NCBI GenBank assembly: GCA_009760855.2
Contig: WPIO01000116.1
Span: 840,001-904,000, forward strand
Length of the DNA: 64,000 nt
Source of the DNA: Cristatella mucedo
Lineage: Eukaryota > Bryozoa > Phylactolaemata > Cristatellidae
Direction: 5' to 3'
Below, piece after piece: positions 1,421 through 39,552 of the stretch; position 1 is the stretch's first letter, and each line of letters begins with the position of its first letter. The notes under the pieces are model-generated. The model did not search any database, had not been told where the DNA came from, and saw only the letters and a list, made by a program, of their open reading frames with translations. The position numbers and the translations under genes are program-made.

Positions 1421-4400
1421 ACAATTTTGTGAATAGGCAAAGTAAAAAATGTACTACAATATTAACCCAAAATTTAAACTTGGCGACGCCAATTTTGCGT
1501 CAGTTTTAGGCAAATTAGAATGGATTGCGGCAATTTTGTCGAACCCGCCCGAAATAGCTATCCTGTCTGAAATAGATCCCCTCCCTGGATTCCGCTAGCC
1601 CGGCACCCCTAGCTCGCAGTGATATATGAAGGAGCCACGAGTGAACCGTGAGTGAGTTTAAACGAGCATTACCCGTAAAGAGGGGAAGAGGGCTTGAACG
1701 ACAGCGACTGGTGCACATCCGCTCCTCTTTGCGATCAATCATTGGTGGGTTTGTGAACCTCAGCAGTCATAATCTAACTCAAGCAGCTCGCGTGAAAGCG
1801 TGCAAAGAGCGACAGTGCAAGAAAGTAAGCGTGCAGGTCGGCTGCTCAAACCGCCTCAACTAGAAAGCGGCAGAATAGTTTTAGCGGCTGTTGTAGTGCC
1901 CCTCAATTGTGAACCTTGATCTAGATCTATGACATTTGAACTTGAGACAGCTTATAAAGTAGCCGCAGTAAACCGATATCCGCGAGCAGAGAGATATTAT
2001 TTCATTGAAGCAGCTTCTTCTGAGTCGAAAGACTTCTCCGTTTGACCAAACAGCTGATACCTTACGTATCCAGCAGCAAATTGTCGTTGAATCACAGCGA
2101 TTGTCGGCAACGATTGCCCGATTTCTTTGACAGGTGTTGAAGAATCATTAAAGAGACCCTGCTGTTAGAAGTGCGATGTGCTGTTCTCCACTTCCACGCC
2201 AAATCGGACGGCTAAATGAGAAGACTGTACGGAAGGACGACAAGACTTTACGCTGTCCAGGTGCCACCCTGCTATCTCCTCGACTGCGCTTCGTCGCTGT
2301 GCTGTTTAAAATGCGAGGCATGCAACAGGGATACATAATTATTACTGGTTTAAATGATCAATCTTTTCCCGGATGACGCCAACGCTCTATTTGCGCGGAG
2401 GAAATGGGGGCTGTCACTTGTCAGCCTCCGCACTGCACCCGAGTGCAGTGCGAGACAAAAGGCTCTCATTTACCGCCGCTTTGCACTTCACTAGGATTAA
2501 TTACTCAACCGCAACGTAATCACCAGCCTGCAACGCTCTCCTCTCCCGGACAAAGCCATGCCAGCCACAACAGCTGCACAGCTTAACTGAATACAAAGCA
2601 ATTTAGCTTTGGGCCTTGGCTTGTCGCCATGTCGAAGAAAGAAACGCGAAGCGAAATAACACAACATTAAGATCTGCAGAGCAAAAGCTGTCACTAACTG
2701 TCTACGTATGACTAAATTGTCTGGCTAATTTCTTGCCTAAGGGAGACTATTAGCCTTGAGTATACTGAAACTAGCAAAGCAGTTCATCGGCAGTGGGGAA
2801 AGGGTCACGGGGTTGATTGCAAGTAGGCTTGGATGGATGTGGTTCAGCATACGTTTTCAAACCACAACCTTGGCAGGCTATCTAGCAGAAGAGGCGACGA
2901 AAACGGAGACGCATTCTTTTAATTTAGATACTAATCTATCCGCCTAACTACTCATCGACGGTACAGACCAACTAAATCTTGGACACAGCCTTGGGGAACG
3001 TTGCTGGTACTTCACGACCCGGATTGTTGGTTTGAGTTCTTCAGCTGGCAATTATTTATTTTAGCCGGAACTTGATACCGGGCCTCCGAGGCTCGCCTTC
3101 CACGATAGTGCGAGATAGTAATGGTCAAAAATACTTGAACAGATATGAATTAATGCGCCATTTCGACCTAAGCTGGACTTTTAAGATTTTGTCAATATTA
3201 TATTAAGATACATTCTTAAAAGCGCATATAAAGATGTATTCTATAAAGATATATTATAAAAGATGTTTTCTACGATCACAACAAAAAAGCTAAATGCCAA
3301 TGTCTGACTTATAGGAGTGAAAGTGAGAGTAGACGTTAAGGTTTTCCAATTTACAGGTATCATTGGGAAAGCGTAAAAGCATAGAAGCCTTGCAGTCCGT
3401 CACTAGCGCTTGAAGAGGGCAATAAATAATCACTCACTTCACAACTCGAACAGTGTCCTTGGTCAGCACTGTAGAAATCTCGGGCTACAAAGCCCTGCAT
3501 TTGAGGAACAAGCCACGACGAAAAGACTCTAATAAAGTCCAAATAATTAAGGTGGCATCCAGAAACTGTCACTGGAGTATACGCTGAAGAGTTTTAATTT
3601 ACAGCAGTCGCCAATTGGCTACGCATTAGAAAAACTGCGATACTGGCAGAGCGAGGCTTGGCGGTCGTAACCATATTTTTGCGCTGGCCGCAAGAAATCG
3701 TCAATTTTACCTGATTTCTATCGCGTGTATGATATGCTGTCCACCAGAGCAGCGACGCTAGAGACGGCTCAGTAGAACGGCTTTTAACTGAGCCTCAATC
3801 CAGCACAATCTCGGTCAGACTGTGGGAGACGAATAACGCACAGTATAGGTAAGTAAATTGACCTTGCAAAAATAGTACATTAGGATAGCCCGAAAGGCCA
3901 ACGCGGTTGATTCAGAGGAAATGGCTAGCTTTCAATTTCCTAACTTTCGATTGCAGAGCTGACAAAGAATGGGCTATCTAGAAAGAAAGGCTATCTACTT
4001 TGTTTGCGTTGCTCGGTCGATGTGATTTTAATTATTGGCACATAGGGTTAGTCATTCAGGCATGGCTGGCTGCACTGTCTGACACCTAAACATCACAAAG
4101 GCAATGCAACTAAGCACGAAAGTATCTCGCTAATTACCTGCTCAAAGAACGAAATTCGTGACCTCATGGTTAAAAGAATGTCCAGTAGTGACACACGAAT
4201 ACATGCGTGATGAAGGGTCAGCCACACCAACAGGAATGCATGGCACAGAATGTTGGACTACGTCAACTCATTTTCTTAGTACTAACAAGGGCAATGTGGG
4301 CCGGCAATTGACAGGGGTCCATCAAAAAGAGCAAATGCTACTGAGCAAATTAATATCTCGCTTATCCCAAGTATCCTCGCACCTGCAATAAAACGTCGGA

Positions 4401-11738: not shown

Positions 11739-12788
11739 TTACTGTGCTGTTCGGCGAATGCTTTGTTGGCCAATGCTCGCCGGGATCACTTCAGGTCCTA
11801 CTTTGCTCGAGCGTCGGTCGAAGCAGAGCTGGAAGCCGCGTAGCGTTGCCGTTCGAAGATCTTCGCTGGCAGTGAGCAGCAGCACTCCGTTGGCGGCAGC
11901 ACCCAAGAACAGGAGCAAATACAGCAATGGCGACCAGTAGTTGGGAGAGGCCACTGCGTTTTCCTGACAGCCATGCATGCAAATGATCTGGTTGATAGCG
12001 GCAGGACTAGTCCAGATTAACTGGGCCGCCGGAATGACTGCACAGTGCACACCAGATCGAAGTAACTTCCTGAGGCGCTTGACACGCTTCGGTTCAGTGA
12101 CTCCGCCTGGTCCGGTTTGCAGCAGCGACCGCAAGCTGGCGATGTTCCTCCTCACTTCCGCTATTATATGATAGTAGCACTTGGCCATCACTGCGATCGG
12201 GATGTAGGCGATCACGACGAGGCTGTAGAGGTATGCACGATTGCTACAATCGCCGCTCGGCAAAAGACACATTTGGCCCCGAACGTCGTAGCCCAGGCGC
12301 CCGAACCCAGTTGAAGGCGGCAGTAGAACGACCAGGCAGCCGAAGCAGACGGCGGCGAGTGACGCTCGAGCGCCTCGCAGCGATGCAAAGACGCGAAGCG
12401 GAGGCCAGCAGCTCGTCACTGTGACCGCGTAGCGGTTGAGCGCTACGACGGCCATGATCCAGATGTTCACGCTTTGCAGGTAGATCGTCGCTCCTGCGCT
12501 GGCAATGCAGTCGAAACTGTCGCCACGCCGCCCCAGCACAAAGTTCACGGCCGCATAGACCCATGTGACACACAGCAGGCCATTAACAGCCGCTAGGCCG
12601 GCGAGCAGAGTGCAGAAGGTCGACTTTCGGAGCTCTTTGGAGGCAGCCGCGGCCAGCAGTGCCGACGTGCTGGGCGCCAAACCCCCAATCACCGTCATGC
12701 CGGTGAAAGCCGCTAGGAACTGCCGGAAGCCGTCGCTGAGTTCGGCAGACGTTAACAAGTCGATGGAGGCATTGGCAGGCGTTGGCAT
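11739..12788 (-). CDS. Rhodopsin-class (family A) G protein-coupled receptor, orphan
   Basis: Single-exon receptor, 349 residues from ATG at 12786-12788. The frame stays open upstream to 13097, but this start is chosen because the pseudogene's matching ATG aligns with it, and a short N-terminus with an N-glycosylation site (NAS, residues 6-8) follows. Seven hydrophobic segments are visible: about 22-48, 58-84, 97-124, 141-160, 186-209, 247-271 and 283-307. TM3 ends in NRY (118-120) instead of DRY. Cysteine 94 can pair with cysteine 174 or 181 of loop 2. The TM7 signature NPxxY is absent; the segment reads SPLLYLLLFLGAAANG. NRY and the GYD..C phrase in loop 2 recall the Moody/Tre1/GPR84 and melatonin-receptor-like groups, but the ligand is unknown. 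Plasma membrane signalling is inferred from the fold. Confidence 0.85.
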   Translation of the reverse strand: MPTPANASIDLLTSAELSDGFRQFLAAFTGMTVIGGLAPSTSALLAAAASKELRKSTFCTLLAGLAAVNGLLCVTWVYAAVNFVLGRRGDSFDCIASAGATIYLQSVNIWIMAVVALNRYAVTVTSCWPPLRVFASLRGARASLAAVCFGCLVVLLPPSTGFGRLGYDVRGQMCLLPSGDCSNRAYLYSLVVIAYIPIAVMAKCYYHIIAEVRRNIASLRSLLQTGPGGVTEPKRVKRLRKLLRSGVHCAVIPAAQLIWTSPAAINQIICMHGCQENAVASPNYWSPLLYLLLFLGAAANGVLLLTASEDLRTATLRGFQLCFDRRSSKVGPEVIPASIGQQSIRRTAQ

Positions 12789-13485
12789 TTCACCAGCCGT
12801 GCAAATTTCTCGTTCAGACTTCTGAATCTTTCGCTCGAAGTCCGTTGTCAGCGAAGGATTGAAGGCGAAATCACTAACAAGAAAGAAAGGTGAAGAGGAG
12901 AATCGCAAGCGAGGTGAAGAGAAGAAACGGTGTCGGGTGCTGCGCCGTCGACTGCCGATATAACCGAGCAAATGATGGCGACATGAAAATGGCACGGAGA
13001 TGCAAGAGCAACGTGAGAGCACACATGCAAATGTAGGATAGCAGGCGGCTAATTCCGTCGAACATTTCAATAAGCCCAAGGTTTCTAACGAGTACATTTG
13101 AATGGAATATTTACGTTTAATATAAATAAACTAGCTAATGCCAGTGAAAAATCTCGATAAATTCGTATTGCATCTGCTTCATAAATAGTCTCCCCTTCAC
13201 GTTGCTGCTGCAGTGGCTAAGGAACCGCTTCAGCCGCGTCAGTCTCTTGGGTACGTTGTTGCCGGAGAGGACATTTCCATCCACCAGTTTCTGCTGCATG
13301 CAATCTAGTAGCGTCTCATGTCTCTCCTACTAGTTTTCGCTTTTTCGGAAGACCAAAGGCTTTACCTTGGAGTATTTTATTGCTTTCGCTTTTTAATGAG
13401 TCTCTCCATCATATCGCTACTACCGAGCGTGCCTTATCCTTTCGGTTTGTGATGCCGCGTCGTGTTTGTTATTCATTTAACTACT

Positions 13486-15270: not shown

Positions 15271-15830
15271 TAGCGTAGATCTTCTCGTTGTGGATTGGAG
15301 TTGATTTCGGTATTGAACCGCGCTGTTGCAGTCGATTGCAGCTCATCGCAGCGCGTTGCACAAAACGGCAGTGCCGATGCAAGTGAAATTCTACGAATGA
15401 ATGTTTCGCAGAATTTACAGTCACATGCAATCAAAACCGGAGCTTTTGATGCAAGATTTCCTTCGCTGTGTTGTGGAATGCCGCCGCTGATTGCTTTTAA
15501 TTGCAGTTGATTGCGTGGGACTGCGGTACTTGCTGGCCCGCTGCAATTTATTTCAGAATATTTCTTGAGGAAACGTAAGTGGAATCACGAAAAATTGCTG
15601 GTTGCATTTCACATGTGGCTTAGTTTTTATTTAAAAAAAATTGGATCTTTACGAGACTAATTCGCTGTGAATTTGAGGCTGACTAAAGTGGATTGAGTGG
15701 ATTGCGGTGCAGTCCTCCGTCGTTGCAACTTCTTTGAGCTACTTTGTTGGACGAGTGCTCATGCGCAGGAAGGCATGCAATTTTGTGGATAGATAAAATC
15801 AAAGATGTACTACTATATTTTCCCACAATT
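15270..15830. repeat. ~170-bp class tandem array, copy 2
   Basis: About three units with cores near 15320 (GCAGTCGATTGCAGCTCATCG), 15505 and 15715. It is followed, as in copies 1 and 3, by a shared flank beginning near GGCAAATTAGAGTGGATT. Confidence 0.7.
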
Positions 15831-16760
15831 TGAGCTTAAACACGCCAATGTCCCGCCAATTGTAGGCAAATTAGAGTGGATTTCGGGAATTGGTCATACC
15901 CGCCCGAAATAGCTATCCTGACTGAAATAGACCACCCCACCCCACCCCCCCCCCCGGCTGAGTCCGGTAGCCCCGCACCGATAGCTTGCTGCGACCCGGA
16001 AGGTGCGACTGGTAGACCAGTAGCGAGTTTAAATAGGCTTTCCTCGTAAAGAGGGGAAGAGGGTTTGAACGGCTGCGACTGGTGCATATGCGCTCCTCTC
16101 TTTGCGATCAACCTTTGGTGGGTTTGTGAACTTCATCAATCGTCACCTTCTTTTGCACGCTTGGGCGGCATGCACGCGTGTGAGCTCGTGTCAAGAGCGA
16201 CAATGTGGGAAAGTAAGAGAAAGTAAGAGGTCGACTGCTCCAACCACCTCAGTTACAGAGAGGCAGAATTGCGTTCGCGGCTATTGCAGTGCCTCTCAAT
16301 TATGAACTTTGATCTAGACCGCTGACGTTTGAACAGGAGGCAGCTTATGAAATAGCCGCAGCAAGCCGATGCTCGCGAACAGAGAGATATTTAATCACTG
16401 AAGCAGATTTCTCTGAGTCTAAAGACTTCTTCCTTTGACTAAAAACCGGATACCTTACGTATCCAGCAGCAAATTGTCTTTGAATGACAACGATTGTCAG
16501 CAACGAGTGCCCGATTTCTTTCACATGCGTTGAATAACCATTGAACATATCCCGCTGTCAGAACTGCCACGTGCTGTTCTCCACATCCACACCAAAACGG
16601 ATGGCTAAATGGAAAGACTGTACGGAAGGACAAAAAGACATTGCACTGTCCAGGTGCCATCCAGCTACCTCCTCGAACTCGCTTCTTCGCAGGATGGTTG
16701 AAAACATTACGCCTGCAGCAGGGATAAATAATGATTGCTGGTTTAAATGATCAATCTTTT

Positions 16761-16930
16761 AAATAAATCCTAGCTGATTAAGCAGCCTCTTTTTTATAGC
16801 GACAAAAGAGCCTTTATGGCTGTCACCACTGCTGACAGTGGCCATAAAGGATCGCCCACCACAGGAATCGAACCACGACCTCAGGACTGATGTCGTGAAA
16901 GAAACTGCCTTCCCTAATGTGTTATCATGG
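16761..16930 (-). mobile_element. SINE family 1 with 5-bp target-site duplication
   Basis: On the - strand it has the SINE-1 head, the B box GTGGTTCGATTCC and the GGGCGATCC body. It is flanked by CTTTT at 16756-16760 and 16931-16935. The paralogous site in block A reads ..ATCAATCTTTTCCCGG.. (about 2360-2372) with one CTTTT and no SINE. This is a clean filled/empty pair showing insertion after duplication. Confidence 0.92.
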
Positions 16931-17734
16931 CTTTTCCCAGACGACGCCGAAGCACAATTTGTGCGGAGGAAATGGGGGCTGTCACTTGTCAGCCGCCGCA
17001 CAGCGCCCGAGTGCAGTGCGAGACAAAAGGCTCTCATTTACCGCCGCTCTGCACCTCCACTAGGATTAATTACTCAATCGTAACGTAATCGCCAGCCTGC
17101 AACGCTCTCCTCTCCCAGACAAAGCCACGCCAGCGACAACAGCTGCACAGCTTAACCGAATACAAAGCAATTGAGCTAAGAGGCCTTGCTTGTTGCAGTG
17201 TCAAAGAAAGAAACGCGAAGCGAATTAACACAACATTAAGATCTGCAGAGCAAAAGCTGTCACCAACTGTCCATGTATGACAAAATTGTCTGGCTAGAAT
17301 GAATAATGTGTTTCGGCATAGGTTTTCAAACCACAACCTTGGCAGGCTATCTAGCAGAAGAGGCGACGAAACGGAGACGCATTCCTTTAATTTAGATACT
17401 AATCTATCCGCCTAACTCCTCATCGACGGTACAGACCAACTGCACCCGGGTCACAGCCTAGGGGTACGGTGCTGGTACTTCACGACCCGCAATGTAGGTT
17501 TGAGTTCTTCAGCTGGCAATTACTTATGTTTACTGTAACTTGATACCGGGCTTCCAAGGCCCGCCTCCCAGGACAGAGCAAGATAGTAGTGGCCAAAGAT
17601 ACTTGAACAGATATTCGCTACTGTGCCGTTTCGACCCAGGCGGGACTTTTTAAGATTTCGTCAAAGCGCATTCACCGACGATTCACGAAGAACAGTGGTG
17701 GTGCTCATATTGAAGCCCGTATGCTGTACCTATT

Positions 17735-17998
17735 TAGGACAGCATTCAGTGGGTCCCTGTGATTCGTCCTTCATGTGCTTATGCGTGCTGACACTGTGCA
17801 TGCTGCCACTAACCACATTTGCATGCTGACCCTGTGCATGTCACCCCTAACCATATTATTCATTTCTTTTGTTTTTTCAAGCATGATTTTACCTACCTTT
17901 CAATTGCATTTCACTTTACAGCAAATGTAAAGCGCCTAGAGAGAGATTAAGTTCTCTGAGGGTGCTTTATAAAGTGAATTATTATTATTATTATTATT
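17735..17998 (+). mobile_element. LINE family 1, 3' UTR and (ATT)n tail
   Basis: GGGTCCCTGTGATTCGTCCTT, then TGCATGCTGACCCTGTGCATG, then AAGCGCCTAGAGAGAGATT..TCTGAGGGTGCT, and a tail of ATTATTATTATTATTATT. Absent from duplication block A, so it was gained after the duplication. Confidence 0.88.
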
Positions 17999-18110
17999 AC
18001 CTCGCAGTTCTAGCGCATACTTGAGAAAGAAAAGCAGTACAGCCCAAATGCAAGCACGAGCGATCGTGACGAACCAGGTGGCCAGGTCATGTGAGTCAAT
18101 TGCTCTCTCC

Positions 18111-21409: not shown

Positions 21410-22500
21410 TGCACCGGCTTAGGAGGACGACACCCAGTCGGATATTTCCGAGACGACGGAGGTTTGCGCACCGCAGTGAATTCCTCCGCTGCTTTTCTTC
21501 AGTTCACTTTTGTAGCCAGACTAGCGGAAGTAGCTCATAAGCCGCAAATTTGTAGTGAAGATATTAGAGTCAAAATTAGCTGCGCGTGTGCTGATGAGAA
21601 CTACTACGAGAATTGTGTCTTTCAGCGCTTAGGTTTCCGAAGAGCCTCGGAGGAATTCTGTAGCTTTTGAAAAACTGTTTTCTGGTTAGTAAAACCTTTC
21701 GCCTATTGTCAAAGTCGCAAGTGGAGCGCCTAGATGCCGGCAGGGGTGTCGTGACCAAGATATAGAACGATTGAAAGAAGTGGTGGAAAAGAACTCGAAT
21801 CGTTCGGTAGTCTTTATAGTGGAAATAAAAGCGAGTATAGACAGGCTGATAATCTGGGTTGCTGGTGGACGAGATCAATTTGCAGCTTGTCTACCGAACG
21901 TTGGAGTTTTGCCAGTGCAATCGCCGCCACTCAACCCCCCTCCACCCTAACCCGAGTGCGACCGGAACTCGGAACTGCCAGACGGAGGTTAACCCTGAAC
22001 TTGCATTATGCAAGTAGGAGATGGGGAAGCCGGTTTCGGTAACGGTGATCCTTAAAACCGGCCAATTGAAGCCTATGCGTTATTTCTCAACTTACAGCTG
22101 GCAGTGGGTTCCGAGTGCTCTGAAAATTAAGTACTGGCTCTGATGGCAATGGCGACGCCTGGTGTAAACAACCGTCCGCCACTGGCAGGGACCGGTTAAG
22201 GGCAGTGTGCATTCCAGCCACCAGCGTCACGCCAAAGGGCGTCGTGACGACGAAGCTAATGGGAAAAGATCCAATTTTTCTTGCGTAACAGCGTGCTAGA
22301 TTAAAAGTGCAACCGCACCCTATCAACCAATCTTGAACGTACATGCGAGGGCAATTCGCAGCCATCGACGGCAACGGCATGGGGAAATACGGAAATCTAT
22401 AACGGTCCATTAAAAATTCTCTGGACTGGACGCTGCTGGGCTACGCTCTCATTTAGATTTCTCGCTCGTGTATACTCTATACTCTAGCTTTGTTTGTAAT
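21410..22500. other. No gene recognised
   Basis: Unique-looking sequence between block A' and array copy 3. An 8-bp inverted repeat GCCGGTTT..AAACCGGC lies at about 22030-22062. The 107-codon - strand frame at 22087-22410 has no recognisable domain. Confidence 0.35.
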
Positions 22501-24240
22501 TGTAATAGACGATCATAAATTGCTGTATTGTCTCGGACAATTGCCGTCGATTGCCCAAGGTTGAAGGTGAAAATGAACAGTATGTGCGCCCATTGCGAGC
22601 GTTATGTGGTAGGATAACTACAAATTCAAACAGCCAATTTCCAGCGAAGTTGAACAAGATTGCTGCAGAGACCGGGCCATTGCCGTCGATTTCCCTCTAT
22701 TGTGGCTTTGTCGATTGTATAAAATGATGTGGCTGCACTTTTAATGCAGTATAATGCAATATTCAGAATGTTTGGAGCTTCTCTGAGCAATTGTCGGTCC
22801 GTTTGTATCTGTCGTTATGAATTGGCGTATTTCCCCGGGCCATTGCCGTCGATTGCCGTACGTTGCCGTCTATTGAACGTGCACAACTTGTGAAAATTAT
22901 TCGTGCATATAGGTACATGTTACGTGGAATGAGAGTTGCAGTTTATTGTAGCCAATCTTGTCAATTTTCCATTGATTTCGCTATCGGCCCCTACCATTGC
23001 TGTTGATTGTTGTGCATTGCTGACAGTTAACATAAAAGCATCTTGAAAAATTTCAAAGTCTTACTTTGGATGCAGCGGAATGTTATATTTAATGACAATT
23101 AAGGCTTCCGCGCTGCCACTTTCTCTTCAATTTGCCGGGAATTTGGGTATTGGCCCAGGACATTAGTGTCGATTGCCGTTCATTGCTCGCGATTGCACGT
23201 GCGCGATTAGTTGAAAGGATTGTATTGCTCTTTTAACACAGTGGGCTGTGGCAGGTAAGATATATTTGATCTTAGCCCAGTCACTTCGCAATGATTTGCG
23301 ATGGACCATAATGGATTGCCGTATTGGCCCACGCCATTGCCGTCTATTACCATTCATTGCCCAAGATTGAACGGTCAGAACTGGTGGAAACGGTTGAAAG
23401 TATATGTGCATGCAGTGAATTCTTACGTGAAATGAGAATTGGAGCTTGGTCAGCCGATTTCTTGTCGATTTGCCATGGATTACGGTTTTGGTCCCTACCA
23501 TTGCGGTCGATTGCCGTGCATGGTTGACAATTAACATGCAAAATAGCTTGAAAGTGCTACGATTTTACTTTTAGCACAAAGAAGTGTGAAATGCGATGAC
23601 AATCGGTACTTCGTGCAGCCAATTTAGTGTCAACTTGCCACGGATTGTAGTGGATTGCTGCTTCGAGCCGAGCCGTTGCCGTAGATTGCCATGCTTTGCC
23701 CGAGATTGTAAGAGCGCGATGTCTTAAAATGACATGATTGACTTTAACCAGTGTGCTTTGTAACATGCATGAAAAATTGGGGCATTGCGAAACCGATTTC
23801 AGGGCATTTTGCATCAGATTGCTGTAAATTGAGGTATTGGCCCGGGCCATTGCAGTCAGTTGCAGTGCATTGCTGCCGAATTATTGACGCGGTTGCAGAG
23901 AAATTGTGGGCTTACACAATAAACAAAAAGTAGAGCAACGTGCATTCACTATTAGAGCTTAAAGTGTACGTATTCTGGTCGTTTTTCGGTGGATTGCTGT
24001 ACATTGACGTACTGGCCCGGGCAGTTGCAGTCGATTGCAGTGCATTGCATGAGAACGGCGATGCCAATGCACGTGAAAATAATTTGAATTTTCACAGATT
24101 TTGCTGTCGTATGCAATCAAAAAAGGAGCTTTTCTAACAGGATTTCTTTTGATGCATGGTGGAATGCAGTAGATTTCCGTGGGTTGCGATGGACTGCCGT
24201 ATTGACCTGGGTGGGCCACTGCAATCTTATTTCATTGGAC
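22500..24240. repeat. ~165-bp tandem array with 10-bp ATTGC ladder, copy 3 (clearest)
   Basis: About eleven units, with cores near 22541, 22680, 22842, 22997, 23161, 23336, 23505, 23672, 23849, 24024 and 24215; spacing is 140-195 bp, mostly 160-178. In the cores a decamer ATTGCNNNNN repeats in strict register. Examples are four steps at 22842/22852/22862/22872, four at 23161-23191, four at 23336/23346/23356/23366, and three at 24024/24034/24044. Units have diverged but the ladder is kept. Confidence 0.85.
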
Positions 24241-24404
24241 TTCGTGAGAAGGCAGGAGCAGAATCGCATGAAATCTTTTGGGTGCAATGTACGTGTAGCG
24301 TAGTTTGATATTATGAACCTTCTTAAGCTGTGCGCACAGCTGATTTGTGGTTGATTTGACGGGAAATAGAAATGATTTCGGCGGATTGCTGTACAGGCGT
24401 CCGG

Positions 24405-24546
24405 CATCAAAGCTAGTTAAGGTGCTCGCCCCAACTAAAGTCTGGCTGAGGTCGTGGGCTCGAGCCCTGAGGCATATGTGAAGCGCCTAAATAGGGATTA
24501 GGTTCTCTTAGGGCGCTATATAAATGAATTATTATTTATTATAATT
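24405..24546 (+). mobile_element. SINE family 2: tRNA-like head joined to LINE family 1 tail
   Basis: TTAAGGTGCTCGCCCC (A-box side) and GGTCGTGGGCTCGAGCCC (B-box-like) are followed directly by AAGCGCCTAAATAGGGATT..TCTTAGGGCGCTATATAAATG and ATTATTTATT, the family-1 LINE tail. A second copy lies at 60316-60460. Confidence 0.82.
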
Positions 24547-24549
24547 AAG

Positions 24550-25260
24550 TATGCGCGAAGCGACATGAAATTTGTTGGACGTTGAATTCGAATGTTTGCC
24601 ACAACGTCGACGCAAAATTTGAGCTCGGCAACGCTTATGTGCGCTCGTTGCTAGCCTAATTAGAGTGGATTGCGGTCGATTGAGGCAATTCGTCGAACCC
24701 GGCGGGCGCGCGCGCTCAGATCCGCCGCGGTCGCCTGGCGACTCGTAGTAAGCGAAGGAGCGAGCGAACCCTGCGGCCCAAGCCGTCGGCCGGTAGTTCG
24801 CGCTCGCTGCTCGCGGCTCTTCGCACTGCGGCAGACGGTAGAAGCGTAACAGAAGCGTTCAGTCGGTGCGATTTGGCGAAGGCGCAAAAGCGGAAGCCGG
24901 CGCGACGGAAGCGGAAGCCGGCGCCATTCGGTGCCGTGCGACTTCCACGTCCGACAGGTAATTGGGCGCAAACGCAGCGCTTGTAACGCTTGTAGCGGGG
25001 GGGGGGAAGACTAGTGGACAGCTCCTGAGCGCCATAGGTATTGAAGAACGGCCGCGAACACGGTTGCAATGTCCCGCGGCTGCGAACTATGAGCTCGACA
25101 ACCGAGCCTTGGTCACGAATTGCGAGTTCGAGCGGTGAACTTTGAACTGTTAACCTCGAACTGTGAGCTTGTCGCTGAAAAATAGCTGAGAGCAGCTTAT
25201 CAGGTGGCCGCTGTTGGCCGATGCTTAACAGCATCGCGATTTATAAATAGGTAGGAGCCT
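24550..25260. repeat. Third, diverged copy of the array flank
   Basis: AATTAGAGTGGATTGCGG..CGTCGAACCCG (24659) matches the flank at about 1514 and 15868. GCAGCTTATCAGGTGGCCGC..GCCGATGC (25194) matches GCAGCTTATGAAATAGCCGC (16341). The middle is GC-rich and expanded. The 172-codon - strand frame across it is not taken as a gene. Confidence 0.6.
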
Positions 25261-25419
25261 GAATATCGTAAGACTTACGAGCAGACCATTATACAAGGCG
25301 TGGACACGATGGTAGTCGCTGTCTGGGAGTGACGTTCCACCAGTGGTTGGGTCCTAGGATTGAGCGTTAGCTCTTGCGAACCTTTTTTTTAAGCAAATCT
25401 CTAGGAATTAAATGTAATT

Positions 25420-27560
25420 TATCACCATCTGCAGCTTCACAGAGCCACAAAGACTATGTGTGTGTTACGCAGGAGAGTTTTTTTTATACCACACTCACAG
25501 CCTAAGCGGCTTTCGGTAGTTACGCATTCGGTAGCCAGCAGTCTTAATCTCACGCGACAAAGAGAAAGTGGGAAGCATAGCGGAATCAGGAGAGCAGTTG
25601 AGGTAGTGATTAGGATGGAAGTAGTAGCTCAGGACCGCTGAAAAGGGTGAGCCATAATCAGCAGCGTGAGAGTATTTGACGTATCGTAAGAATTGTTGCA
25701 GCGAGTTCCACATTGGAGGACCGGCAGAGCCACAGCATCTGTCGCCAACGGTCTTTAAGCGGAGGAATGGAGCAGCTAACTTATTTTCCACACAGGACCC
25801 GAGGGCATGACGAAGCTGAAACGGGTGCAGTAGTTCAGCTAATAATAATAATAATAGGTACGGAGGAGCCAAGCCGTGGCGGACATTGTGGGTCAGCGTA
25901 AGACCTTTGCTCTGCATCCGTTCATCAACCGGCAGCCATCCGAGCTCGTTAAGCAAAGGAGACACGTGTCCAAACCTCTGGGACTTGAAGACTTGCCTTG
26001 CAGCCATATTCAAAGCTTGCTGCAGTGGCTTATTTGCTTTCTTTGGTAGCCGGCCAAAAGGGAAAAACAATAATCAAGCCGAGACAGAACTAAGGAGCTA
26101 GTTAAATCTTTTACAACTCACTGTGGAAGACAGCTCATGATCTTAGATAGTAATCAGACGTGATGGTTATCTGTAGAAGCAGTTTTCTGAATGAAGCTTT
26201 TAAAATTTAGGCAGCCGTCAAAAACTGCATCTACATTACGAGCACGTGGTGATGGTCGCACAGCAGCATCCCCTATTAGAAGAGCAAAGCCTTTTAATCC
26301 GGCCACAGGCTAAGGGTGCCCTCTGAGCAGCAGTTCGGTTCTATCGTCTTTTAGTTTCAAGAAGTTTCCGGTATCTAGGATCTAATGTCGGCAAAGCAAA
26401 TATTCAGTTTATTAGTTGCTACAGCTGATTCCAACGGTTTGAATGACAAATAAAGCTGAGTTTCGTATGCATAAAAGTTATATCCTATTCCATGGGTCTT
26501 AATCACTTTTCCCAGAGGTTGAGTATAAATGGTGAACAGCAAGGGGCCGAGGACGGACCCGTGAGGGACTCTACAGGTGACCCGTCTCGTGTGTGAGACC
26601 TGACCGCCACACGACCCGGATTGAACGCGATCAGATAAAAGCAATTTGAACCGTGCCAGTACCTCGTCTGCCAGACCGATCGTTGTTCTCAATCGTTCAA
26701 ATAGAACATCGTGATCAACGGCGTTGAAGGCAGCTGATAGAGCTACCAGAGTTAGGGCAGTGACATTTCCTCATCATTACCACATATTATGTCATCGTTA
26801 ACACGGAGAAGAGCAGTTTCAGTGGAGTGCTACCTCTAGAACTCGGATGCAATGTTTCTGACATTTCATTCTTTTCAATATGCGCAACTAGAGGCGGCAG
26901 TGTTTTTGAGAATCTTTGACAAAAAGAAAGAAGTAAAACTGGGCGATAGCTTGCAAGAATCTCTGTATTTAATTCATGCTTTTTTAGTGTCGGTCCAACG
27001 ATTGCCGATTTGAAGGACATGGGTACGAACCCTTTTCCAAAAAAAAAGCATTGCAATTCTCGGTTATGGCAGGCCTAAGTTGGTCTGCCATTGAAGACCA
27101 GTGATGATTGTCTCGAGAGACGAGCTCTTTTTACTAGACCTTGTTAAGGTAGCCACATTGCATGCAGAAAACATGGAAAACGTTTTAATAAAAGTTACAG
27201 GTTGTGATTCCACAATAGCTTTACTCGGAGGGGCTTTATGGAGGCACTAATAAGCACAATTATTTCTGTAAAGAAGGCTGAAAACGTTTTGGCTGAGCCG
27301 GTAATATCTGGGGAGTCAGATCTCTCAGTATTGGCCAGTAAATCTGTTACCGTCTTATAAATCTGTCTTGGGTCCGAATGGCAGAAATTCAGTTTTCGAG
27401 TGAATACAGCCCTGGCTTCTGTAAGCTTCCTGGTCTAAAATCGAAAGAACTCTGAAATTGACTATATTGGCCTCAAACCCGATTTCTTAAAACGGCGTTC
27501 AAGCCTGCGCTTAACACGGCACATCTTTTCAAGTTTTTTTTGTAAATTGAAAGGAATCTC
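25420..27560 (-). mobile_element. LINE family 2, largest copy (degenerate ORF2)
   Basis: Reading on the - strand from high to low coordinates, a decayed reverse transcriptase can be followed. 26787-27056 holds the thumb-side piece, with LASYRPVLLL. 26375-26692 holds CRVPHGSVLGPLLFTIYT and YNFYAYETQLYLSF, where the catalytic YADD has become YAYE. 25495-26070 holds the C-terminal part, with KSQRFGHVSPLLNELGWLPV and GPPMWNSLQQFL. The pieces lie in different frames. The mutated catalytic motif and frameshifts make it inactive. It belongs to the L2/CR1 group by the arrangement of these motifs. Confidence 0.85.
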
Positions 27561-27984: not shown

Positions 27985-28140
27985 AATAATAATAATAATA
28001 TATTTGGCATTGTGCCCTCATAGAACTCAATCTCTTTCTGGGCACTTCACATTCGCTGCAAAGGAAGCGCGATCGAATGGCTAGCGGTAGCATGCTCTAT
28101 AAACAGCAAGAATTGCGCAGTTAATGGAGAACAACATGGT
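27985..28140 (-). mobile_element. LINE family 1 tail
   Basis: AATAATAATAATATATTTGG followed by TGCCCTCATAGAACTCAATC and TCTTTCTGGGCACTTCACAT is the reverse complement of the family-1 3' end. Confidence 0.8.
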
Positions 28141-28377
28141 AGGAGTTAGGCAATAGCTCAGGAACCGCTAATCATGAATATCGGTCGCAATCCGGCCGAT
28201 TTAGCTCGCCTCCGCCATTTCAGCAGGGAGTAGCGCTCCAGGAGTTGGCCTCGACTCATTTGAGCCCAGCTGCCTTGCAGACGTTGCTCAGTGGCTGCAG
28301 AGCCATGTAAGAGCTGCTACACGTCATGGCCGCTTTCAAACGGCTGCAACTCTCCAAAGATACAAAAAACGATACCA

Positions 28378-28535
28378 GCTGGTTTACCAGCCTCATTCTG
28401 TTTTAGCGGCAGAAGAGCCTTAAAGGCTATCCCCGTCGCTTGCAGCAGCACTAAAGGATCGCCCACCCGTGGATTCGAGCCAACGTCCTCGAGACCGAGG
28501 TGGCGAAGAGCGACTGTCTTACCTAGTGTAGACTT
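28378..28535 (-). mobile_element. SINE family 1
   Basis: The reverse complement carries the GGGCGATCC body, a B-box region (GGATTCGAGCC read on +) and the head ending near TTACCTAGTGTAG. It lies about 0.9 kb upstream of the transgelin-like start codon. Confidence 0.8.
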
Positions 28536-29414: not shown

Positions 29415-34825
<5,411 letters not shown>

Positions 34826-37101: not shown

Positions 37102-38619
37102 CTAGACTGTTGGATTCCGAAAAGCTGGTGCTACGATGCTTGGCCTGATGGGGGTCCTTATGTTGGAGAAATAGGCTGGAGCCATAGAATGAATGGACCT
37201 AAAAGTGAGCGACAAAACCTTGAAGTCAATCCGTTGCTTGACTGGTAGCCAGTGCAGGTCGGCGAGAAGTGGAGTAATGTGGCAACTGTGACGTTCACGA
37301 CAGACAAGCCTAGCTGCAGAGTTTTGCACCAGCTGCAATCGCCTGATCGCACATGCTAGTAGGCCAGTAAGCAGTGAGTTGCAGAAGTCGAGACGAGATG
37401 TCACGAATGCATGGGCCAACTTAGACGTGGTATCCTTATCTAAACAAGCCCGAATTTTAGCAATGTTATGAAGCTGAAAATAGGCAGATTTGACTGTGGA
37501 GCTGATATGGTCGTCTAACGAGAGGTCGCTTTGGAATATGACACCTAGATTTCGAGCTGACTTGATAAGAGATATGCTGGCAGAGCCAATTTTGAGCGTC
37601 AGCCTTTCGAATTTCTGAATCACACTGGGTTTGCCCATAACTAGTAAGTTAGTTTTGTCATCGTTTAGTTTAAGAAAATTTGCTGCAAGCCATGTGCGGA
37701 TGTCATCAATGCATGCTGCAAGTGAGTTTAGAGAATTTGAGGTGCTCGAAGGCTGGGAGGGATCAAAGCAAAGGTACAACTGAGTGTCATCCGCATAGAA
37801 GTGAAAGCCTAGATTGTGCTTGGCAATCACATCAGCAAGAGGCAGAGTATAAACCGTGAAAAGAACTGGACCTAGCACGGAGCCCTGAGGTACTCCATAT
37901 TTCAGAGGTACTTCAGATGATCTTTGTCCATTCACGTCAATACTCTGCAGTCTCCCACTGAGATAGGACCTGAACCACTGCAGAGCAGTGCCAGTGATGC
38001 CCAGGCGAGATGAGAGGCGCTCTAGAAGAACTTTGTGATCGATGGTGTCAAAAGCTGCCGATTGATCAAGCAAAACAAGCAGAAACACTCTACCTATGTC
38101 TGCACTCCTAAGTAGGTCGTTGTATACCCTAAGCGATGCTGACTCTGTGGAGTGATTAGCTCTAAAGCCAGACTGGAACTTACTAGCAAGGTATGAGGTT
38201 TCGATATATGAGTTTAGCTGGTCTGCCACTACCTGTTCCAGTGTCTTTGATCGAAATGGTAGAAGGGAGACTGGGCGGTAGTTGCTCAAGTTCTCTTGGT
38301 CTAGTGTTGCTTTCTTGAGGAGAGGCCTGACTACAGCTTTTTTGAAAGGTGCTGGGACATGACCTGAGGCTAATGACATATTAATGATGTTAGTTATGCA
38401 TGGCAGCAGCAAATCAATGCAACGTAGGAGCAGGACAGTGGGAATATGGTCCAGAGGACTTGTTGTCTTCTTTGATTGAGATACGAACTTTAGGACTAGT
38501 TCACTAGTGACCTTCTTAAATGCAGACATTGAGGTGCAGCCAGGAACCGAGGAACAGCATTCTAGTGGGGAGGTTGTCATCGCAGGAATGGATTCCCTGA
38601 TCTTGTCTATCTTCTGCAC
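37102..38619 (-). pseudogene. LINE reverse transcriptase domain of ORF2
   Basis: 505 codons in the same phase as the endonuclease. Reverse transcriptase blocks are intact: [12 protein letters not shown] (111-122), GFRANHSTE (151-159), LDQSAAFDTIDH (184-195), YGVPQGSVLGP (241-251) and FHFYADDTQLYL (272-283) with the catalytic YADD. After PAYFSNIRTP the frame departs from that of other copies (which read ..DLLPHQAKH..). The last ~100 codons are therefore lost to a frameshift near 37160. The enzyme would copy the LINE RNA at the nicked target. Confidence 0.93.
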
Positions 38620-38625
38620 AAAGAA

Positions 38626-39552
38626 TCAAGAGAAGCGATCGGCTAGATCATCATTAGGATCATCAGGTAAGGAGCTAATCTGGGAACGGTTGAGTAGATG
38701 GTTTATTGTCGACATCAGCCTTTTTGGATTGTGCATCTGTGATTCAACAATGTTTTTATAAAAGCTAGACTTGGCCTTTGCTAGGATCGATTGGTACGAC
38801 ATACAGTAGTCTTCACATGCCTGTCGATGGACAGTTAGTCCAGATCTTTTGTATGCTTTTTCAAGCTTTCGTTTAGTAGACCTGGCTAGTTTAATGTCTG
38901 AGGTAAACCATAGGCCGTCTGGGCGGGGGCGCACAGTGTGCTTTGTCAGAGGTGCAAACTCGTCGAGCGTGTCAGCTAGTATCTTGTTGTAGCTATCTAC
39001 CAATGATGACATATCGGAGGGAGGACTGAGCAGCAAAGGTGAAGCAGATATGCTCGCACGGACAGCATCGATGTCAAGGGTCTTGAGGTTTCGCGATTCA
39101 CAGGTTATTTTAGAGGAGAATGTGGGCACACACTGTAGATTGAATGAGATCTGCATGTGGTCAGATAAGCAGGATTTGTTGATAATTGGTGATGACAAAG
39201 TACAGTTGTATGAGAAAATCTGGTCGAGTGTGTGACCCTTGATGTGGGTAGGGCCATGCACATGAGCCACAAGAGACAATGAGTCAGTCAATGCACGAAA
39301 TTCGGTGCTGAAAGCGTCAGATAAGTTATTAAAGTGAACGTTGAAATCACCCATTACGAGGAAGGATTGATTTCTTGCACACATAATCGAAATGAGATTG
39401 GAGGAATCTGAGATAAAGGAGGATTTGGTACCTGGAGGGCGATAGACTGCTGCCACTATCGGTAGCTTGTTTTCGGGTGAGACCAAGACAATTGATTCAA
39501 AAGACTGCTTCGAGGGTACCGCAAATGGCTTGAAGTTGAATTTCGAGCGCAC
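38626..39552 (-). pseudogene. LINE endonuclease domain of ORF2
   Basis: 308 codons. Motifs of the APE-like endonuclease are present: AAVYRPPG (34-41), MGDFNVHF (67-74), GHTLDQIF (106-113) and LSDHMQISF (129-137). These correspond to catalytic Asp/Asn and the terminal Asp-His. It would nick target DNA for target-primed reverse transcription. The frame continues upstream without an ATG (the listed start is a GTG), so the true start is not visible. The domain ends at a premature TGA; two codons later the reverse transcriptase frame continues in phase, showing a single nonsense change. Confidence 0.9.

Follow-up and report, generated by a model that had tools for sequence, protein, structure and literature searches.

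The locus

The window, by which we mean the whole 64,000-bp stretch of Cristatella mucedo DNA that was analyzed, carries a frame with a rhodopsin-family receptor domain that is probably a single-exon host gene, adjacent endonuclease and reverse transcriptase frames that constitute a non-LTR retrotransposon, several dispersed repeats, and a tandem array in which a short motif, ATTGC, recurs in steps of ten bases (Table 1). An Rfam search at gathering thresholds found 0 RNA genes in the window, and a tRNA scan found 0 tRNAs.

Table 1. Features of the window and of the element copy that contains the array
Feature	Position	Strand	Basis or remark
Receptor frame, probably a single-exon host gene	11739..13097	-	452 codons; PF00001
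Older second stretch resembling the right arm of the element family	15289..15902		about 64-73% similar; no terminus at up to 3 mismatches
Dispersed repeat	17728..18000; 27985..28113		recurs in flanks of several fetched loci
Dispersed repeat	16762..16932; 28341..28529; 30817..30999		recurs in flanks of several fetched loci
Left part of element, inverted in window copy relative to relatives	22250..22480	-	opposite-strand match beside array
Array, about ten units of 139-175 bp, one block of ATTGCNNNNN-like decamers per unit	22486..24057	+	relatives' matches; block positions
Example ladder block	22842..22886	+	ATTGC 22842, 22852; GTTGC 22862; ATTGA 22872; direct sequence reading
Example ladder block	23162..23206	+	ATTAG 23162; ATTGC 23172, 23182, 23192; direct sequence reading
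Continuation towards right arm, last degenerate units	23985..24414	+	~73-77% to relatives
Later insertion, another dispersed SINE-like repeat	24416..24551 (boundaries approximate)	.	relatives lack it here
Right terminal region: GTGGATTGCG-like decamers followed by terminus GCAATTCGTCGAACCC at 24685-24700	24552..24700	+	terminus match with 1 mismatch
Dispersed repeat	25411..25882		recurs in flanks of several fetched loci
Non-LTR retrotransposon, adjacent endonuclease and reverse transcriptase frames	37102..39552	-	PF14529; PF00078

The array contains ten conserved blocks, which start at 22540, 22679, 22842, 22996, 23162, 23336, 23500, 23675, 23849, and 24024. The intervals between them average 165 bp, in agreement with the original prediction of tandem units of nucleosome length. 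Two weaker scan hits at 24100 and 24173 (12/19 positions) were left out of this unit count, and at the block scan threshold of 11, shuffled sequence yields 3 hits on average and at most 7. Tandem Repeats Finder did not report the array in the window.

The ten-base ladder is confirmed. Between positions 22500 and 24240, ATTGC occurs 28 times and 6 pairs lie exactly 10 bp apart; in 1,000 dinucleotide-preserving shuffles, the motif averaged 5.8 occurrences and never exceeded 15, and such pairs averaged 0.014 and never exceeded 1. Base autocorrelation over the same stretch is highest at a lag of 10 and second highest at 174. When ATTG pairs were pooled over 13 of the 20 related copies that we fetched (see below), 257 were 10 bp apart, against 3 at 9 bp and 12 at 11 bp. 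The ladder is nevertheless short: of the 624 ATTG runs with a 10-bp step that these 13 copies hold, 438 consist of a single rung, 128 of two, 46 of three, 11 of four, and 1 of five. Thus, the predicted 10-bp register of the decamers stands out clearly from shuffled sequence both in the window and in its relatives. The two examples originally given for it were only partly exact: in 22842/22852/22862/22872, the first two rungs read ATTGC and the last two are variants, and 23161/23171/23181/23191 was off by one, with three exact rungs preceded by ATTAG (Table 1).

Dispersed copies of the element

A 321-bp array probe found 1,182 candidate places in the species' own 572-Mb genome. The best 40 of these were scored and all matched over nearly the full length, at 86-89% apart from the window's own copy (100%), with an additional shorter match at 77% in one place. 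The array is therefore dispersed, and many genomic copies carry the ladder. Neither of the two outcomes that the original prediction named as refuting it was thus obtained, although it did not recognize that the array belongs to a transposon. We fetched 20 relatives with their flanks, which understates divergence because they were chosen as best-matching. Two alignments were built from them. One holds 15 of the 20 relatives without the window (L013, L017, L021, L024, and L025 were omitted as rearranged) and served for spacing, substitutions, unit lengths, and indels; the other, of 14 rows, holds the window and the 13 relatives having one match longer than 1,300 bp.

The units proved to be older than the dispersal of the copies. 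Using 6 of the 14 rows and 8 units, the same unit in different copies was 86.7% identical (120 comparisons), whereas different units were 56.6% identical within one copy (168 comparisons) and 56.7% identical between copies (840 comparisons), with shuffled units at 45%. The units had thus drifted apart before the copies dispersed, so the array at the window locus was inherited as a block. Modal unit lengths between the main blocks range from 149 to 195 bp in the 15 relatives and include 154, 165, 166, 174, 175, 185, and 195 bp.

Relative to these copies, the one in the window is rearranged: its left part is inverted, ~500 bp of array is lost, a second repeat has been inserted, and its left end is unrecognizable. 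The inversion of 22250-22480 relative to the array holds against 13 of the 17 relatives with listed matches (those other than L017-L019); no match to this segment was listed for the remaining four (L013, L023, L024, and L028). Because it suggested a 5' inversion by twin priming, we considered a LINE, which was dropped once inverted ends and 9-bp target site duplications (TSDs) were found. In 13 of the 20 relatives, the array gives a single match longer than 1,300 bp, at 83-87%, and the remaining 7 match it piecewise over shorter stretches. The missing part of the array was lost near 23985-24057, as judged from the two places ~500 bp apart that this query matches in relatives. Further right, relatives join 24414 directly to about 24552. 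The SINE-like repeat inserted here has an AT-rich tail; its positions 24446-24532 are matched by at least 6 other fetched loci, and no clear target duplication was found around it. Similarity to relatives extends as far as 24700, and the right terminal region has 827 candidate genomic places, of which the best 40 were scored at 81-100%.

The element is bounded by inverted repeats. Its right end is GTAATTCGTCGAACCC, whose inverse also lies to the left of it in 7 of the 20 relatives (within the fetched stretch, up to 3 mismatches). The exact 19-mer terminus GCGGTAATTCGTCGAACCC occurs 98 times in the genome compared with 0 for a reversed control, and GTAATTCGTCGAACC with up to one mismatch occurs at 756 places compared with 88 for the control. 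Six two-ended copies measure 2,899-4,140 bp, and their longest stop-to-stop frame is only 172 codons. Their inverted repeats span 33, 257, 400, 465, 568, and 830 bp and are up to 97% identical; five of six therefore exceed 250 bp, and they show the long, length-variable terminal inverted repeats (TIRs) that define Foldback elements. At 29 ends, we counted 0-4 GTGGATTGCG-like terminal decamers per end by the criterion used, with at least one at 28 ends compared with 110 of 5,000 random positions. The array itself is less symmetrical. Pairs of ATTGC spaced by 10 bp number 4 and 4 on the two strands in L024 and 14 and 1 in L026, and lie on one strand only in the other four two-ended copies, so the array is largely on one side, unlike the arms of a classic Foldback element.

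Some copies are flanked by TSDs of the size typical of Mutator-like elements (MULEs), which is 8-10 bp and usually 9. At 9 bp, a duplication agreeing at ≥8/9 positions was found in 4 of 17 two-ended copies compared with 0 of 272 mismatched pairs, and lowering the threshold to ≥7/9 adds 3 more (7/17 compared with 2/272). This sample combined 10 end-pairs picked from the listed termini, some of which may join ends of different elements, with 7 copies from the array set. In the other 10, comparison of the flanks gave no 9-bp TSD, which is what one would expect if copies had decayed, were chimeric, or had their ends wrongly paired. L016 has, by eye, a possible duplication next to a run of C that lay outside the search range and was not counted. 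In L045/L046 and L057/L058, the outside flanks are reverse complements by eye (with one mismatch in the second pair), and the palindrome continues into host DNA; this may be a real inverted duplication or an artifact of assembly or long reads.

Maintenance of the ten-base register

Length differences between copies indicate how the ladder has kept its register. Across the 15 relatives, 19 distinct indel intervals of 10 bp and 5 of 20 bp fell within the ladder, and 0 of either size fell elsewhere. By contrast, single-base indels numbered 6 in the ladder and 50 outside, and 11-bp indels numbered 5 in the ladder and 3 outside. Ladder-near columns made up 690 of 3,388, with a mask set by presence of the ladder in any row; the intervals came from pairwise rows of one alignment in which the aligner placed the gaps, and a single event can be represented by several intervals. 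However, neither the mask, nor gap placement, nor multiple counting would create a 10-bp peak from other sizes. Individual units also differ by ten among copies: one measures 195 bp in 7 of the 15, 185 bp in 2, and 175 bp in 2, and another measures 165 bp in 9 and 156 bp in 4. A general test of unit lengths was weak. The modal lengths gave a concentration of 0.616 at period 10, reached by 10 of 5,000 jittered sets (0.660 and 71 of 5,000 for the window alone), but it was equally high at period 11 (0.61), the lengths are shared by descent, and values of 0.50-0.52 at periods 9 and 12 also mean that period 10 is not singled out.

The spacing of the rungs does not appear to be specially protected. 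Rung pairs that are mostly 10 bp apart were exactly so in 238 of the 248 cells in which both rungs were present, no better than the 97.1% found for random 10-column stretches, and a rung was missing in 37 further cells (13.0% compared with 7.8%). Spacing instead changes by one decamer per step. Addition and removal of entire decamers is thus the best explanation for the register: a ladder that changes length in steps of ten bases stays in phase without having to serve any special function. The original prediction had offered two origins for the ladder, and they fared differently: derivation from an older decamer repeat is favored by the whole-decamer indels and the terminal decamers, while selection on spacing is not, given how ordinary the conservation of rung distances is.

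Substitutions and A/T periodicity

The motif itself shows a mild deficit of substitutions. Outside CpG sites, ATTGC columns carried 0.0228 private substitutions per site compared with 0.0318 in other columns (8 of 2,803 circular shifts were as low) and 0.0119 shared substitutions compared with 0.0191 (169 of 2,803 as low). For ATTGC rungs within the ladder, these rates were 0.0228 private and 0.0078 shared. The 14-row alignment pointed in the same direction, with agreement of 0.963 in ATTGC columns compared with 0.944 (5 of 1,585 shifts as high), and gaps were more frequent in ATTGC columns in both alignments. This deficit may stem from bias in the alignment of repeats or from a binding-site function in the mobile lineage, and neither provides a firm explanation.

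On a fine period grid, the recurrence of A/T dinucleotides in the array is strongest at 10.25 bp (power of 7.11), and smaller peaks stand at 10.95 and 11.2 bp. On a coarser grid, the power was 5.46; the 113 other window stretches reached at most 1.82, and 400 simulated tandem arrays without a ladder reached at most 5.18. Randomizing those ATTG rungs with a partner 10 bp away (22 of 52) left a mean power of 3.08, still above the simulated 95% value of 2.19. A period of 10.26 bp is also the 17th harmonic of a 174.5-bp unit and the harmonic nearest 10. This periodicity would be compatible with a chromatin or protein-array reading but gives it no direct support.

Origin of the array

We consider it likely (probability of about 0.8) that the array makes up the internal and subterminal repeats of an old Foldback/Mutator-like transposon, a non-autonomous element moved by cut-and-paste that is present in many copies in the genome and rearranged in the window. 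We therefore call the element Foldback-type, and Mutator-like by TSD size, without claim to a transposase. In its history, an ancestral GTGGATTGCG-like terminal decamer may have been multiplied by slippage or unequal exchange, and a block of decamers with its spacer would then have been amplified into units of ~165-175 bp in a master copy. Copies would have been moved in trans by a Mutator-like transposase, for which the decamers may have served as multiple binding sites, and the exact register would have persisted through whole-decamer length changes rather than host selection on spacing. Counting against this account are the failure to find a transposase gene with these ends (see below), the clear TSDs in only 4 of 17 two-ended copies, the one-sided array, and the substitution deficit in ATTGC, which pure mutational upkeep does not predict, though repeat alignment may produce it.

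This deficit is also an argument for a function of the ladder in the element itself. Selection within the mobile family could act on the ladder as a series of transposase-binding sites in helical phase, with 10-bp steps tolerated since each leaves the sites facing the same side of the DNA. We regard this as unlikely, though with a chance worth keeping in mind: both private and shared substitutions are reduced in ATTGC, many modal unit lengths are about ten apart, and the transposase domain of Galileo binds repeats in its long TIRs, according to the available text on that element (PMC3688188), but rung spacing is kept no better than random columns and rungs are missing more often, no transposase was identified, and private substitutions, mostly post-insertion, should not be reduced if selection acted on the master alone. 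A more elaborate form, which we rate as improbable, would make the whole element a phased platform, with ~14-17 units, many near a whole number of turns (17 × 10.26 bp), placing 40-50 ATTGC sites over ~2.8 kb near one DNA face. Length changes would be filtered or generated in whole decamers, and a transposase oligomer or a run of nucleosomes might assemble there before transposition. That the array positions nucleosomes, one per unit with A/T steps every helical turn, would suit the mean unit of 165 bp and the strength of the 10.25-bp peak. Yet a 10-bp comb in a 174.5-bp array is expected to peak at that 17th harmonic anyway, unit lengths vary from 139 bp in the window to a modal 195 bp (modal range, 149-195 bp), and dispersed, decaying copies would not suggest a host role, making this quite improbable.

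Two readings would place the array outside cut-and-paste elements altogether. A non-autonomous Helentron (HINE) of the kind known from oysters could carry it as its central repeat, and the COX1 of the assembly, which we take to look lophotrochozoan, counts in that direction. Oyster HINEs carry satellite-like arrays of 140-180 bp, similar in unit length and dispersal, although the available text of the same source states that Helitrons make no TSDs (PMC7492417), whereas here 9-bp TSDs exceed chance and the element ends are inverted repeats of each other. A Helentron was set aside on the TSDs and seems to us very improbable. A local satellite, suggested by the tandem units, is refuted by the genome-wide dispersal of array copies, which keep the same order of diverged units on many contigs, and a chance effect of composition is at odds with the excess of the ladder over shuffles; we give these almost no credence.

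As a functional finding at the window locus, one decayed, rearranged transposon copy is ordinary. Its wider interest lies in showing that when a ladder mutates in ten-base steps, its motif can stay in exact helical register during long decay even if spacing is not under selection. A family of so many copies also offers a test bed for whether repeated subterminal decamers help a Mutator-like transposase. A literature search found no published description of the family, which does not establish its absence from print.

Related elements and candidate transposases

The FB element of Drosophila provides a likeness, as its long TIRs are built on short tandem repeats that include a 10-bp class; it differs in its 20- and 31-bp repeat classes and its association with NOF. 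Parallels also come from Mutator-like families of Aedes aegypti, which have 8-9-bp TSDs and, in 10 of 12 families with long TIRs, short subterminal tandem repeats of 9-15 bp, as far as the available text goes (PMC5225508). For Muta1-14 of that species, a transposase has been identified (PMC5225508), whereas none is linked here, and the decamers of the present element additionally form part of 165-175-bp units that extend over about 1.5-2.8 kb. Tm1, a Mutator/Foldback element of root-knot nematodes, likewise shows TSDs that are mostly 9 bp long, composite TIRs in which the number of short tandem repeats varies, and MITE-like copies, but its repeat is ~14 bp long and lies in the TIR, and the available text mentions no 165-175-bp units (PMC3169594). 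Tetris of Drosophila virilis is also a non-autonomous foldback element with 8-10-bp TSDs, internal tandem units of ~220 bp, and no transposase found. Its units, however, lie in the TIRs and seeded a satellite, and the text available to us mentions no decamer ladder (PMC4079207). Galileo of Drosophila resembles the present element in its long repetitive TIRs of variable length, its chimeric copies without matching TSDs, and repeats that bind a transposase domain, yet it belongs to the P superfamily and makes 7-bp TSDs, again from partial accounts (PMC3573991, PMC3688188).

A search of the genome for transposases gave no candidate with the element's ends. The MULE transposase domain PF10551 matched 59 places, the nearest of which is 69 kb from any of the 98 exact ends, and the termini were absent at up to 2 mismatches from the six PF10551 loci that were read. 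PF00872 had no genome matches, and the three matches to PF12762 all lie on contig C3, where no exact end is listed. In five of the six loci read, the transposase is surrounded by inverted repeats that read by eye as short tandem repeats, as in published families (PMC5225508, PMC3169594, from the available text); Tandem Repeats Finder was run on L035 only and confirmed the tandem repeat there. No inverted repeat was seen by eye in L034. L033, L035, and L038 (transposase match at ~3880-4270) have inverted repeats about 2 kb apart made of ~15-bp, partly palindromic GGACAAAATGTCCCC-like units, and are apparently other Foldback-type MULE families of the same genome. L036 and L037 have inverted repeats of short GGACAATTCG-like units around AATTCG/AATTTG.

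One further fetched contig, G000:C688 (L059), is probably mitochondrial. Its COX1 forms an open frame under tables 4, 5, 9, 13, and 14, the five codes tried in which TGA stands for tryptophan and AGA/AGG still encode residues.
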